A DNA stretch of 64,000 bases from Rosettibacter firmus (GTDB taxonomy: Bacteria; Bacteroidota; Ignavibacteria; Ignavibacteriales; Melioribacteraceae), in assembly GCF_036860695.1 (NCBI RefSeq), contig NZ_JAYKGJ010000003.1, positions 248,001 to 312,000 of the forward strand. Direction: 5' to 3'. Below are positions 9,051 through 24,853 of the stretch, piece after piece; the first letter of the stretch is position 1, and every line of letters starts with the position of its first letter. The notes under the pieces were generated by a model that was not told the DNA's origin, ran no database searches, and saw only the letters and a program-made list of their open reading frames with translations. The translations under genes were made by a program, and so were the position numbers.

Positions 9051-9140
9051 GCGTTGTTACCTCCTTATTTAGTTTGTAAATATTGTTATTACTTGTTTCG
9101 TTCATTTGTTTTTTCATTATGGTTTTCAAAATATCATTTA

Positions 9141-9575
9141 TGTCATTCTGAACGAAGTAAAGAATCTCAGATCCTTCCTCCTGCCTAAAGCAGGACTCAG
9201 GATGACGAAGTAATTCATATTATCAAAAAACTTATATTGTCATTCTGAGCGAAGCGAAGAATCTCTTTTTAGTTCCTTCGTCCTGTCAAAAGCAGGGCTC
9301 AGGATGACTCCGTCAGATTCTTCGGTCACTTCGTTCCCTCAGAATGACAACTTCATCATTACCTGTCATTCTGAGCGAAGCGAAGAATCTCTTTTTAGTT
9401 CCTTCGTCCTGTCAAAAGCAGGACTCAGAATGACTTCGTTAGATTCTTCGGTCGCTACGCTCCCTCAGAATGACTTTGTAAATTTTCATTTGTCATTCTA
9501 AGCGAAGCGAAGAATCTCAGATTCTTCAGAAATTCTTATTTGTCATTCTGCTTCTTTTAAGTGCAAAGAAGAATT
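9141..9575. repeat. Cluster of dispersed repeat family R2 (GTCATTCTGAGCGAAG)
   Basis: Four to five copies of a palindromic unit whose left half reads TCATTCTGAGCGAAGCGAAG and then AATCT, and whose right half is the inverse ending TCAGAATGACA, often separated by a TCCTGC..AAGCAGGACTCAGGATGAC spacer. Copies start near 9141, 9238, 9364, 9491 and 9540. Translations give the spurious HSERSEES-type peptides well known from automatic annotation. The rest of 8912-9805 has no recognisable gene. Confidence 0.9.
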
Positions 9576-9744: not shown

Positions 9745-9803
9745 TCTCTGCGTTTTCTTTGCGACCTCTGCGGTTTAAGTATTTAACCGCCAAGAACGCA
9801 AAG
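9745..9803. repeat. R1 repeat hairpin, downstream bracket of GxxExxY gene
   Basis: CTCTGCG..CTTTGCG..CTCTGCGGTTT on the left faces AACCGCCAAGAACGCAAAG (9785-9803) on the right, so the unit can fold into a hairpin. Its edge is three bases from the stop codon of the PD-(D/E)XK gene. Confidence 0.85.
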
Positions 9804-9805
9804 AA

Positions 9806-10186
9806 TTATAAATTATGGACAACTCGTTTAATTCCATTCTTAAGCAACTTAACATTGAAATTTATCAAGTATCCTAATTTACATCCTGATAGTTTCAAAT
9901 AAGTTATTAATTGAGCCATATGGACTTCATTTAATGCTTCTACAGATTTTATTTCCACTACTACTTTATTATTAATCAGCAAATCAAGACGATAGCCAAT
10001 ATCAAGTTTTACATCTCTGTAAATAACAGGTAATTCTTTTTGCGATTCAACGTATAAACCTGATTTAATCAACTCATACTTCAAACATGCTTCATAAGTC
10101 GATTCTAAAAGTCCAGGTCCGAGTTCCTTGTGCACAATTAGCGCACAATCAATCAATATTTTCCCTATTTCATTTTCTGTTAACAT
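9806..10186 (-). CDS. GxxExxY-family PD-(D/E)XK nuclease-like protein
   Basis: A 126-residue protein matching the GxxExxY family (TIGR04256/PDDEXK_3). The naming motif is GLLESTY at residues 25-31. The nuclease core is visible as D68 in RLDLL, E78-I-K80 in VVEIKS and Q92/Y96 in AQLITYL, so the catalytic D-ExK set is intact. Length is normal for the family. The family's biochemical role is not established; nuclease activity is inferred from the fold. The gene is bracketed by R1 repeats: one ends 3 bp past its stop and another begins about 12 bp before its start codon, with no room for a normal promoter outside the repeat. This packing suggests the gene and repeats move or persist as a unit. 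Confidence 0.85.
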   Translation of the reverse strand: MLTENEIGKILIDCALIVHKELGPGLLESTYEACLKYELIKSGLYVESQKELPVIYRDVKLDIGYRLDLLINNKVVVEIKSVEALNEVHMAQLITYLKLSGCKLGYLINFNVKLLKNGIKRVVHNL

Positions 10187-10198
10187 ATTTAAAATTTT

Positions 10199-10299
10199 TC
10201 TTTGCGCCTTCTCTGCGAACTCTGCGCCTTCCTACCGCAGGCAGGGTTAAATTATATTGAAACCGCCAAGAACGCAAAGCATGCTAAGAGACGCTGAGA
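10199..10299. repeat. R1 repeat between GxxExxY gene and rpiA, overlapping the rpiA 3' end
   Basis: TTTGCGCCTTCTCTGCG and CTCTGCG on the left and AACCGCCAAGAACGCAAAG (10261-10279) on the right, with an inserted CTACCGCAGGCAGGGTT segment that is also found near 20640. The right end, ATGCTAAGAGACGCTGAGAA, supplies the rpiA stop codon and its last three sense codons. Confidence 0.85.
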
Positions 10300-11018
10300 A
10301 TTTTTATTCCATTATGTGAAGAACAATAAACTTTATCAACAAGTTTGTTTAAGAAAATACCATGTTCAACAATTCCAGCTCTTTCATTTAGAATAGAGCT
10401 AAGCTCAGCTGGATTTTCAATTTTTCCAAAATAAACATCAAGTATAAAATTTCCTTCGTCTGTTAAAAATGGTTCATCATTATTTTTTCTTAAAACTACT
10501 TTTGCACCAAGTGATTCAAGAAAAGATTTTTCACTTTCAAGTGCAAATTGTAAAACTTCAACAGGCACAAAAAATTTTTCACCTAATTTATCTGAAAGCT
10601 TTGATTCGTCAACTACTACAAGAAAACTTTTTGTATTCTGAGCAATTACTTTTTCACGCAATAATGCCCCACCACCACCTTTAATTAAATTTAATTCCGA
10701 ATCTACTTCATCAGCTCCATCAATTGTAATATCGATTGGTTTTAGATCGTTAATATTTTCACTGGACAATTTTTTATAACATTCATTAAGTGAAATTACA
10801 GGTATTCCGAGTTGAATGGCTAATTCTTTAGTTTTATTTGATGTTGGAACACCGTAAATATTTTTCAATTTACCTTCCTTAATTTTTTTTGCCAGACTTT
10901 CAATTGCGAATTTAGCAGTAGAACCAGTGCCCAGACCAACAATCATTCCGTCCTTAATTTCTTCAACTGCATTTTCTGCAGCTGACTTTTTCAATATTTG
11001 AGTTTCTGAATTTTCCAT
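10284..11018 (-). CDS. rpiA: Ribose-5-phosphate isomerase A
   Basis: Interconverts ribose 5-phosphate and ribulose 5-phosphate in the non-oxidative pentose phosphate pathway; cytosolic. The 244-residue protein has the phosphate-binding GTGSTA (30-35), the catalytic DGADE (100-104) and KGGGGALLREK (113-123) motifs. Length is slightly above the usual ~220-235. The C-terminus reads IKILSVS; the final SVS and the TAG stop are encoded by the R1 repeat that abuts the gene, so the original stop was probably replaced when the repeat arrived. zwf and pgl of the oxidative branch lie at 41-43 kb. Confidence 0.95.
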   Translation of the reverse strand: MENSETQILKKSAAENAVEEIKDGMIVGLGTGSTAKFAIESLAKKIKEGKLKNIYGVPTSNKTKELAIQLGIPVISLNECYKKLSSENINDLKPIDITIDGADEVDSELNLIKGGGGALLREKVIAQNTKSFLVVVDESKLSDKLGEKFFVPVEVLQFALESEKSFLESLGAKVVLRKNNDEPFLTDEGNFILDVYFGKIENPAELSSILNERAGIVEHGIFLNKLVDKVYCSSHNGIKILSVS

Positions 11019-11159
11019 ATAAAATCTCGAGCTAATTTTTAAAGAAATAATTGTGCCAGCAAAAATATCTTTGTTTTTGATAAATAAATTTAGGATTATT
11101 TTTTGAGTGATGCGAATATTTTTCGCATTCAGGTGAAAAAGTTACTAATTGTTATATTG

Positions 11160-11214
11160 AAACCGCCAAGAGCGCAAAGATTATGCAAAGAGTTACTGGC
11201 GTTCTTAGCGGTTT
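11160..11214. repeat. R1 repeat hairpin between rpiA and the M13 peptidase
   Basis: AAACCGCCAAGAGCGC (11160-11175) pairs with GCGTTCTTAGCGGTTT (11199-11214) with one mismatch and one G-U pair. It lies 10 bp past the peptidase stop codon on the minus strand, upstream of rpiA, and may also serve as a transcript-end structure. Confidence 0.85.
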
Positions 11215-11224
11215 CAAAATATTA

Positions 11225-13267: not shown

Positions 13268-13521
13268 AAAAACTCCTATAAAATTTTTTGAACATTAATT
13301 AAGACGATTTTTACTTACAATCGTTTTACTTTTAAGTAAAATTAATACAATTATTTTTTGTTAAAAAATTATTTATTAGGTAATGAATTGTTATTTTGAG
13401 TTTGGGAAAGTATGATTGCCAGAGAATCTGACAAAGTCATTAAATGATTTAACAAATATTTAGTAAGAGATACTTCATGCCGCTTTTTGCGTAATTCAGG
13501 ATGAGACATAATGAACCTACA

Positions 13522-13902
13522 CTGTAATTCTGAGAAAGTGAAACGATTAAAGAATTTTAGATTCTTCACTTCGTTCAGAATGACAAATGAGAATTTATAA
13601 AGTCATTCTGAGTCCTGCTGTAGAAAGGATGAAGGGTCTCAAGAAAGAAAAATAAACTTTGAGATTCTTCGCTTCGCTCAGAATGACAGGTAATGATGAA
13701 GTTGTCATTCTGAAGGAGTTTAGTGACTGAAGAATCTGACGAAGCAAACATAAGCCTGAGTGAAATAAAGATAAAGAAACAAAAAAGAGATTCTTCACTT
13801 CGTTCAGAATGACAATTGTAATGATGAAGTTGTCATCCTGAGTCCTGCTATAAGCAGGACGAAGGATCTATTGAAAGATTCTTCACTTCGTTCAGAATGA
13901 CA
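13522..13902. repeat. R2 repeat cluster between the M13 peptidase and GIY-YIG gene
   Basis: At least four inverted or degenerate R2 copies, starting near 13522, 13601, 13704 and 13831, each ending in TTC(G/A)CTTCG(C/T)TCAGAATGACA. Several carry the TCCTGCT..GCAGGA spacer. No gene is supported in 13268-14127 apart from these repeats; apparent frames are repeat-derived. Confidence 0.9.
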
Positions 13903-13956
13903 GATGAGAATTTATGAAATCATTCTAAGCTTTGCTTAAAGTTAGGGCTTTGTGTT

Positions 13957-13980
13957 ATTGATTATTAATGTGGCTAAAGC
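13957..13980. repeat. Third repeat (R3), left copy
   Basis: ATTGATTATTAATGTGGCTA followed by AAGC; the same 24 bases recur with one change at 14657-14680, exactly 700 bp away in the same orientation. The pair brackets the GIY-YIG gene and its R2 repeats. Flanking bases (GGGCTTT/GAGCTTT before) are also similar. Confidence 0.65.
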
Positions 13981-14070
13981 AGGATTATTCTTTGTAATTT
14001 TTTTGACTAAACGCATTTGAAGCAGCAAGGTTCAAGTGGAATTTTTTATTCACATATTCTATTTTTTCAT

Positions 14071-14107
14071 TGTCATTCTGACCCCGCTGAAGGCGGGGGA
14101 AGAATCT
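14071..14107. repeat. R2 half-unit immediately upstream of the GIY-YIG gene
   Basis: TGTCATTCTGACCCCGCTGA, then a GGCGGGG hairpin arm and AAGAATCT. It ends 20 bp before the GIY-YIG start codon. Confidence 0.85.
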
Positions 14108-14127
14108 AAATATACAACAAGTAAAAC

Positions 14128-14412
14128 ATGAAATCATATTACGTATATATAATGGCAAGCAAAAGTAAGGTTATATATACAGGTGTAACGAATGATATAA
14201 AAAGAAGAGTATATGAACATAAGAAAAAAATAATTCCCGGTTTCACAAGCAAATATAACACAACAAAATTAGTATATTATGAAGAGACTAAAGATATAAA
14301 AACAGCACTTGCAAGAGAGAAACAAATAAAAGGTTGGTTAAGAAGAAAGAAAATAGAATTAATAGAAAAAGAAAATCCTTTATGGGAAGACCTTAGTAAA
14401 GATTGGTATTAA
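14128..14412 (+). CDS. Small GIY-YIG nuclease superfamily protein
   Basis: A 94-residue stand-alone GIY-YIG domain (UPF0213/COG2827-like). The two strands are YVYIM (5-9) and YTGV (17-20), followed by the conserved R in KRRVYEH (25-31), GFTSKY, LVYYEE, the catalytic-type Glu in AREKQIKGW (62-70) and the terminal NPLWEDL. These features match single-domain family members, which are widespread but functionally uncharacterised. No good ribosome site precedes the ATG. An R2 repeat ends 20 bp upstream and another begins 46 bp downstream, and direct copies of R3 lie outside those. It is the only plus-strand gene in the first 23 kb. Mobile or repeat-associated role is inference. Confidence 0.88.
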   Translation: MKSYYVYIMASKSKVIYTGVTNDIKRRVYEHKKKIIPGFTSKYNTTKLVYYEETKDIKTALAREKQIKGWLRRKKIELIEKENPLWEDLSKDWY

Positions 14413-14457
14413 AAAATTTTCTTTGAGAAAAAATAGAATAACAAATAGAAACCGACA

Positions 14458-14604
14458 CTGTAATTCTGAGAAAGTGAAACGACTGAAATATTTTAGATTC
14501 TTCACCTCGCTCAGAATGACAATTGTAATGATGAAGTTGTCATCCTGAGTCCTGTTGTAGATGAAGGAGCTAAAAAGAGATTCTTCGCTACGCTCAGAAT
14601 GACA
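14458..14604. repeat. R2 repeats immediately downstream of the GIY-YIG gene
   Basis: Two copies: 14458-14521 (degenerate left arm, right arm CTCAGAATGAC) and 14538-14604. The second is nearly identical over about 65 bases to the copy at 14903-14967, including the unusual GTAGATGAAGGAGCTAAAAA spacer, pointing to recent duplication. Confidence 0.88.
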
Positions 14605-14656
14605 GGTAATAATTAGTAAATGAATGATTGATAAAATAAAATTGAGCTTTAATCCC

Positions 14657-14680
14657 ATTGATTGTTAATGTGGCTAAAGC
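14657..14680. repeat. Third repeat (R3), right copy
   Basis: ATTGATTGTTAATGTGGCTA followed by AAGC, matching 13957-13980. Downstream, 14759-14774 contains a GTTTGC..GCAAAC hairpin that may belong to the same element. Confidence 0.65.
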
Positions 14681-14858
14681 CTTTTTTATTTCTTTCTTTT
14701 CTTCTCGGTTCACTAAAATGAACTGCAATTTTTAATATTAAATAATTTTTTTATTGCGGTTTGCTTTAGCAAACTGTTCATTGATTTAAATTGGAATCTC
14801 AGGCTTAAGTCTCATTTATTCTCAATTATAACTAAAGCAAATTAATTATGATAATTTT

Positions 14859-15353
14859 AGATTCTTCGCTACGCTCAGAATGACAGATGAGAATTTATAA
14901 AGTCATTCTGAGTCCTGCTGTAGATGAAGGAGCTAAAAAGAGATTCTTCGCTACGCTCAGAATGACAATGGTAATATTCATAATGCTATAAATTGATAAT
15001 GTCACTCTGCGGGAGTGAAACAAATGAATAATCTTAGATTCTTCCCCTGCTAAAGCGGGATTCAGAATGACACGATAATGTCGATAAAATGATATGATAA
15101 AGTTGACGCAGTCATCCTGAGGGAATCCGACGAAGTCGGATGACGAAGGATCTGACAAAGTTATTAAAAGTATTATAAGAATTAACAAAGTTAAAATGAA
15201 ATGCATAGTAAGAGATCCTTCACTCCGTTCAGGATGACAGACGAGTACTTGCGAAGTCATTCTTAGGGAATTCGATAAAGTTGGATGATCGAAGAATCTA
15301 ATAAAAGAAATAAAGAGATCCTACCTCCTGCTAAAGCGGGATTCAGAATGACA
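14859..15353. repeat. R2 repeat cluster between the GIY-YIG gene and thiE
   Basis: About six R2 half- or full units in tandem and inverted order (starting near 14859, 14903, 15001, 15111, 15257 and 15300). One includes a GTCATCCTGAGGGAATCCGA variant. No gene is supported in 14413-15400. Confidence 0.88.
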
Positions 15354-15400
15354 TGGTAGAATTGATAAAGTAGAAACAAAGTGATTGAAGATTCTAACGA

Positions 15401-20566: not shown

Positions 20567-20653
20567 AAAACCGCAAAGGGCTCAAAGAGAGCAAAGTTTT
20601 ATTTCTTTGCATCCTCTCTGAGTTCTTTGCGACTGCCAGCAGCAGGCAGGGTT
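20567..20653. repeat. R1 repeat between GT9 and DUF2723 genes
   Basis: AAAACCGCAAAGGGCTCAAA and GAGCAAAG on the left, TTTCTTTGCATCCTCTCTGA, GTTCTTTGCG and a CTGCC..GGCAGG palindrome on the right. It fills the gap between the two genes and ends 11 bp from the DUF2723 stop codon. The inserted GGCAGGGTTT tail matches the copy near 10240. Confidence 0.85.
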
Positions 20654-20663
20654 TCAATATATC

Positions 20664-24667: not shown

Positions 24668-24853
24668 AACTCCCGAAGAATCTAACGAAGTGACCGAAGA
24701 ACTTCTTATAGTGAAGTAACCGAAAACTCTGAGATTCTTCGCTTCGCTCAGAATGACAGATGAAGACTTATGAAGTCATTCTGAGTCCTGCGTGAAACAA
24801 GACGATCTCAAAAGAGATTCTTCACCTCCCCTTTAGTGGATTTCAGAATAACA
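24668..24853. repeat. R2 repeat cluster between GT2 and the ABC transporter
   Basis: Contains a degenerate copy (24675-24710), a clear right arm CTTCGCTTCGCTCAGAATGACA, and a full unit GTCATTCTGAGTCCTGC.. ..TTCAGAATAACA. The 390 bp between the GT2 stop and the ABC start hold no gene. Confidence 0.85.

Follow-up and report, generated by a model that had tools for sequence, protein, structure and literature searches.

Small genes of the GxxExxY family, in genomes of several bacterial phyla, are mostly enclosed by inverted arms made of tandem CRCNRRG units, and the middle letter of the CRC in these units follows the last residues of the encoded protein. We interpret this as a nuclease–repeat partnership that resembles the REPtron but has an unrelated enzyme at its core; the protein would read its own arms and mobilize the element. 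The probability that we attach to this interpretation is roughly 0.58. The starting point was one such gene in Rosettibacter firmus, contained in a stretch of 64,000 nucleotides that is referred to here as the window.

The GxxExxY gene of Rosettibacter firmus and its repeats

The window gene (9806–10186, minus strand) encodes a 126 aa protein, identified as a PD-(D/E)XK nuclease from its TIGR04256 and PF13366 scores and from an AF2 model. Its neighbours are rpiA and the gene for a surface protein, and it is the sole ORF between its arms. The 5' arm, R (10200–10251, minus strand), reads on the gene strand TTTAACC, an insert, and then the spaced units CGCAGAG, CGCAGAG and CGCAAAG; the 3' arm, L (9783–9803, minus strand), reads CTTTGCGTTCTTGGCGGTTAA. 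The arms are mutually inverted, with the 3' arm 2 bp past the stop codon and the 5' arm 13 bp before the start. The sequence-only reading had described the gene as tightly bracketed by palindromic repeats, named R1, and this description holds. Each side of the gene is a full palindrome of an inner and an outer arm. On the 5' side the R arm pairs with an outer arm at 10259–10298, which overlaps the 3' end of rpiA, and on the 3' side the L arm pairs with an outer arm at 9746–9778 (inverted repeat I4).

The copies of R1 that had been reported to stand alone in the window are real. One gene-less R-spacer-L copy is found at 11158–11217, between rpiA and an M13-type peptidase gene. Another lies at 20567–20656, and at 1–31 there is the L arm of a gene-less copy, the R arm of which is just outside the window. 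The 3.24-Mb genome as a whole contains 17 matches to the R1 pattern and a single match to the reversed control, and an Rfam search at the repeats gave no match. R. firmus has only two GxxExxY genes. The second, on another contig (L002), is also bracketed, in this case by a sister repeat in which CAC replaces CGC. It lies in sense between RAMP-like and CARF-like genes of a type III CRISPR-like locus (G000:C1:396311-399637).

Other features of the repeat region were also seen. The last codons of rpiA extend into the R1 arm (window 10284–10300; L134), both here and in genome G153, so that the coding sequence is completed by the repeat. At 10226–10242 and 20636–20650 a short palindromic insert (CCTGCCTGCGGTAGG or CTGCCAGCAGCAGGCAG) is nested within the R1 arms. 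Another interspersed repeat, TGTCATTCTGAGCGAAGCGAAGAATCTC, forms clusters at 9123–9527, 13514–15400 and 24687–24805, beside the R1 region and, in inverted orientation, elsewhere.

The encoded protein

The window protein scores 146.1 bits against TIGR04256 (cut-off 35) and 143.2 bits against PF13366 PDDEXK_3 (cut-off 22), which is the only Pfam family to exceed its cut-off; Cas_Cas4, at 17.3 bits, falls below its own of 22.7. The GxxExxY motif (G25-LL-E28-xx-Y31), D68 and E78-x-K80 are invariant in 44 sequences, and in a further motif, Q92-xxx-Y96, the tyrosine is invariant and the glutamine nearly so. The AF2 model has a mean pLDDT of 96. Its nearest folds in the PDB, with modest scores, are lambda exonuclease and the Cas4 protein SSO0001, and among viral models it matches a halophage PD-(D/E)XK nuclease. 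No solved relative was found by sequence search of the PDB, and a search of defence families returned nothing beyond weak Cas4-like scores. The best reading of the GxxExxY protein is a minimal PD-(D/E)XK nuclease similar to Cas4 and lambda exonuclease, the cleavage of DNA being inferred. The C-terminal tail of the window protein, ..KRVVHNL, is of the type that accompanies CGC units.

Inverted arms around GxxExxY genes in other genomes

TIGR04256 is present in 199 of the 294 genomes of the class, in up to 12 copies each. Small genes of this family are thus very common in the class, where no role is known for them. Among the papers found the family is barely mentioned, and never with repeats, and none of relevance turned up for the core letters of the repeat. 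Flanking sequences were read for 32 loci and then for 81 more, 80 of them in named genomes (Bacteroidota, Planctomycetota, Acidobacteriota, Chloroflexota, Cyanobacteria, Neomarinimicrobiota and Proteobacteria). Most of these loci share a common design on the gene strand: AACC, CRCNRRG units about 9–10 bp apart, the gene, and the reverse complement of this arrangement. The layout is therefore R-gene-L, with arms of tandem units and outer ends of AACC and GGTT. At one locus, L092 from an Acidobacteria MAG, the order of the arms is reversed to L-gene-R.

A bracket score that uses no motif was obtained by comparing the 5' flank with the reverse complement of the 3' flank. Its median was 21 for 110 GxxExxY genes and 11 for 285 other genes from the same loci (p = 3e-39). 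Combining the 5' flank of one locus with the 3' flank of another lowered the score to 10.5–11.5, compared with 20–21 for own pairs, which indicates that the arms match locus by locus while their letters differ between loci. After 100 more loci had been added, the inverted-arm match exceeded the 99th percentile of shuffles for 77% of 198 GxxExxY genes, and significant arms span the Bacteroidota, Planctomycetota, Chloroflexota, Acidobacteriota, Cyanobacteria and others. The shuffles, the mismatched pairs and the other genes of the same loci exclude an artefact of chance or composition. The sequence-only reading had staked its case on R1-like repeats being enriched at the ends of GxxExxY genes in many genomes; in this comparison (21 against 11) they clearly are.

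The CGC/CAC code of the arm units

Agreement was assessed in the 66 loci in which each arm contains two adjacent units. Between the two arms the middle letter of CRC is the same in 98.5%, against 50% after shuffling across loci, and among the units of a single arm it is the same in 94.7%, whereas the two bases of the inter-unit spacer agree in only 15%, against 9% expected (p = 0.08). In a set of 160 loci, 119 are wholly uniform in CGC or CAC, and the mean majority share of the unit letter is 0.944 where 0.675 would be expected. Base pairing or gene conversion would have equalized the spacers as well. Uniformity of the units without that of the spacers therefore points to recognition by a protein. 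The differences that do exist between arms are symmetric, 250 being of the G:U type and 257 of the A:C type.

The similarity of arms between loci rises with the identity of the proteins (Mantel test, 0 of 300 permutations), and when the closest protein is taken from a different genome its arms have a similarity of 0.50, compared with 0.29 on average. An influence of the shared genome on the letter was considered and rejected: the 18 same-genome pairs showed no significant excess, and ten genomes hold both kinds.

Unit letter and protein C-terminus

Which part of the protein varies with the unit letter? The most strongly associated columns are the last four residues, 123–126, with a V/A-N-N-L tail accompanying CGC and an I-L or I-N-G-x-L tail accompanying CAC. 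On a protein tree built without these columns the CGC/CAC label changes 24 times. Position 126 predicts the letter in all 24 of the tree-independent pairs, and position 125 is right in 21 of the 24 and wrong in none. Since the protein is short the tree is weak; only 2 pairs lie on supported branches, and the tree with all branches was used instead. The prediction test was run with relatives of more than 80% identity held out of training, and also without this hold-out. In each of the ten genomes with both CGC and CAC kinds the tail fits the arms, as in G147, where RLIL is found with CAC and RVVNNL with CGC.

The association of tail and letter is thus demonstrated; direct recognition of the units by the tail of the nuclease is an inference for which there are no binding data. 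N-terminal position 4 follows the arms as well, correctly in 15 cases and wrongly in none, and recombinational exchange of gene ends together with arms is consequently an alternative to contact between the tail and the DNA.

Gene-less copies, gains and losses

Genomes with GxxExxY contain on average 3.9 solo repeats and those without contain 1.1. Taxonomic confounding was addressed by testing within families, where the excess persists (p = 0.018). For degenerate repeats the counts per genome are 4.5 and 1.1, with 0.27 and 0.24 for the reversed control. This excess is not the result of the brackets counting themselves, which after correction account for about 0.96 of the 4.5 repeats in each carrier genome. 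Some families have little or no excess in carriers, and ten GxxExxY-free genomes still hold at least 3 repeats. Four genomes (G230, G081, G271 and G120) have 9–16 repeat matches and no GxxExxY gene that could be found; recent loss of the gene, or another enzyme, is possible.

Orthologous sites were found in several states. In one genus, the rpmE spacer is full in G188 and G043 (CAC) and in G270 (CGC), has arms without a gene in G337 and G177, and retains a one-arm relic in G336. The carA-carB spacer of 13 genomes from another genus is full in 2, contains a relic in 1 (G228, which is nearest to the full G036) and is without any R1 in 10. Between a permease gene and arsC the element is present in G165, G086 and G169, and several other genomes are empty and lack the repeat. 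The rpiA spacer is full in the window; in G153 it contains a palindrome without the gene, G312 of the same genus keeps a remnant, and G297 lacks R1 there. A copy in G119 has kept its arms around an internally deleted gene. In the repeat-rich sister genomes G218 and G149, the arms of orthologous solo copies are retained but the sequence between them turns over. A 14-kb DNA search against G149 matched mostly other repeats. Taken together, these sites indicate that a site without the repeat can acquire arms and gene, and that deletion accounts for at least some of the gene-less palindromes. Comparison of empty and filled sites in close relatives, which had been proposed along with the first description of the window gene, thus reveals that the gene has been gained and lost between the arms, and that insertion has also taken place at sites lacking any repeat.

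There was no excess of direct repeats at the outer ends (n = 143), and hence no signal of target-site duplication, although old duplications may have eroded. No recent, near-identical insertion was found.

Genomic context and selection

Within co-directional gene pairs, 75 of 77 GxxExxY genes lie in sense, the co-orientation of control neighbours being 0.78. Among close pairs, for example Flavobacterium loci at orthologous sites, dN/dS is about 0.05, and such strong purifying selection in situ is unusual for a purely selfish element. There was no GxxExxY in 50,697 phage records; on plasmids the count was 8/72,556, and viral contigs yielded 1 locus in 2.9 million. On these counts the gene was rejected as phage or plasmid cargo. 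The sense bias, the dN/dS and the scarcity on phages and plasmids describe a chromosomal element that is selectively kept and is probably transcribed with host operons. Dependence on host transcription is inferred.

S23-like genes

Genes for S23-like four-helix-bundle proteins (TIGR02436) were found in 79 of 100 genomes sampled, in up to 16 copies. They also occur between inverted arms of tandem 7–8-bp units (L302, L303, L310; L345–L374), the letters of which vary from locus to locus (GAGTATTG, TAGTGATT and GAGTAACG are examples of units). Brackets were significant in 11 of 25 sampled genes. The carA-carB spacer (L302, L303, L310) hosts either an S23-like or a GxxExxY element, depending on the species, with different arms. 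The design of an inverted tandem-unit bracket may therefore be wider than GxxExxY.

Discussion

The REPtron consists of a RAYT gene with inverted REPs, in which each enzyme has a specific repeat, solo copies are present, the repeats outlive the gene and conservation is mostly vertical and housekeeping-like (PMC6006769). A relation of this kind had been suggested from the window alone, and much of it stands: the GxxExxY gene lies between inverted cognate repeats, there are several kinds in a genome, solo copies are intergenic, gene loss leaves repeats behind, and conservation is likewise mostly vertical and housekeeping-like. The element is nonetheless not a REPtron, because its enzyme is a PD-(D/E)XK nuclease and not a Y1 HUH nuclease (Y1_Tnp) like RAYT, and because its arms of CRCNRRG units, with AACC/GGTT ends and a letter set per locus, lack the GTAG foot (5' GT[AG]G) of the short REP hairpin. 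In addition, a genome may contain as many as 12 copies of the gene-bearing form, and this form enters empty sites.

Insertion sequences and MITEs share with GxxExxY a gene between inverted ends and gene-less derivatives with the same ends. An ordinary insertion sequence or classical transposon is ruled out by the absence of a DDE transposase and of a target-site duplication signal; the nearly fixed sense orientation and the strong purifying selection in situ are further differences. Homing endonuclease genes with a PD-(D/E)XK fold exist, such as I-Ssp6803I, and they too are small nuclease genes embedded in a presumed recognition sequence. The GxxExxY gene is not tied to an intron or intein or to one conserved host site, and its putative target is an interspersed repeat. 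Cas4 and lambda exonuclease have the same fold and type of active site, but GxxExxY is a single domain of about 126 aa, distant in sequence and, in the window, outside any CRISPR adaptation module. The Rpn proteins (YhgA-like, PF04754), recombination-promoting nucleases, are also small and linked to DNA mobility (PMC5350276) but belong to a different Pfam family from GxxExxY (PF13366). The intervening sequences (IVS) of 23S rRNA have terminal inverted repeats, are cut by RNase III and carry a small S23 ORF within a transcription unit (PMC4990558). Both kinds of element have a small ORF flanked by inverted repeats and placed within a transcription unit; the S23 protein is unrelated to GxxExxY, and the GxxExxY arms bear no sign of RNA pairing.

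Could the gene instead serve its host? It might be a retained cellular nuclease of repair, defence or genome maintenance with slow and incidental mobility, the arms being its operator or recognition sites, with the scattered copies forming a regulon or marking places for it to preserve or cleave. A dN/dS of about 0.05 at orthologous sites, as in Flavobacterium, the sense orientation in operons and a distribution that is patchy yet common on chromosomes, with almost nothing on phages and plasmids, would be expected of such a gene. We nevertheless think it unlikely: a genome can carry as many as 12 copies, the insertion sites are unrelated, sister species have clean empty sites, and a promoter operator does not have the layout seen here, with inverted arms flanking the gene. 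Homing would be another route: a gene-less R1 palindrome would be cut by the nuclease and repaired from a copy with the gene, which would thereby be inserted between the arms, splitting and so protecting its own target. The precise placement of the gene between the arms, the alternation of gene-less and gene-bearing forms in the rpmE spacer, the lack of target-site duplications and the cognate letters of arm and protein are all consistent with this. The comparison with empty alleles yielded gene-less palindromes at some orthologous sites and sites free of the repeat in sister genomes at others. At the latter, arms and gene have at least sometimes arrived together, and the remnant in G119 resembles a deletion and not an insertion. 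Homing of this type seems to us decidedly improbable.

Two other explanations were weighed. Templated mutation can homogenize palindromes, and strand-switching during replication or gene conversion alone might keep the arms alike, the nuclease having no part in them. Such homogenization would equalize the inter-unit spacers, and their agreement of 15% against 9% largely refutes it; nor does it offer a reason for the letter to follow the protein tail, and we give it hardly any credence. Alternatively, the arms might pair in the transcript, with RNase III excising the gene from operon mRNAs as it does for the IVS of 23S rRNA, whose terminal inverted repeats it cuts (PMC4990558). Sense insertion in operons would fit, as would the similar bracket of the S23-like genes, which are relatives of the IVS gene. 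Without an excess of G:U over A:C differences between arms (250 against 257), and with inter-unit spacers that are not kept complementary, RNA pairing is not what selection keeps, and the chance that this explanation is correct appears very small.

The partnership of nuclease and repeat remains the reading that we favour. Its unit would be a one-gene element, a GxxExxY nuclease gene seemingly transcribed by the host and enclosed by inverted arms. The C-terminal tail of the nuclease would read the units of its own arms, V-N-N-L reading CGC and I-L or I-N-G-x-L reading CAC, and processing of DNA at the arms by the nuclease would allow copies of the element to arise at new intergenic positions, with a preference for the sense orientation in operon spacers. 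Gene-less pairs of arms might be copied likewise, in trans. Palindromes of R and L without a gene, among them the R1 copies that stand alone, would be derivatives by internal deletion, some of them amplified. How far, then, does the suggestion of a nuclease-driven or nuclease-maintained mobile repeat hold? Mobility is supported by gain and loss and by entry into repeat-free sites. That the nuclease cuts the arms or drives the movement has not been shown, and enzyme-driven mobility is inferred.

More broadly, these elements could represent a class of minimal elements, each with a small gene between inverted tandem-unit arms, a C-terminal tail that sets the unit letter and a sense position in operons, with the S23-like family built alike. 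We offer this only tentatively, as somewhat less probable than its opposite.

The link to a cognate repeat gives the GxxExxY family a testable role, and explains the widespread CTCTGTG/CTTTGCG palindromes as footprints of GxxExxY. It adds a second enzyme chemistry to nuclease–repeat partnerships, hitherto known for HUH enzymes. The natural CGC/CAC code and its matching tails are a ready system in which to study sequence recognition by PD-(D/E)XK proteins. If the interpretation is true, the tail and the letter would constitute a protein–DNA recognition code that can be read over hundreds of natural variants.
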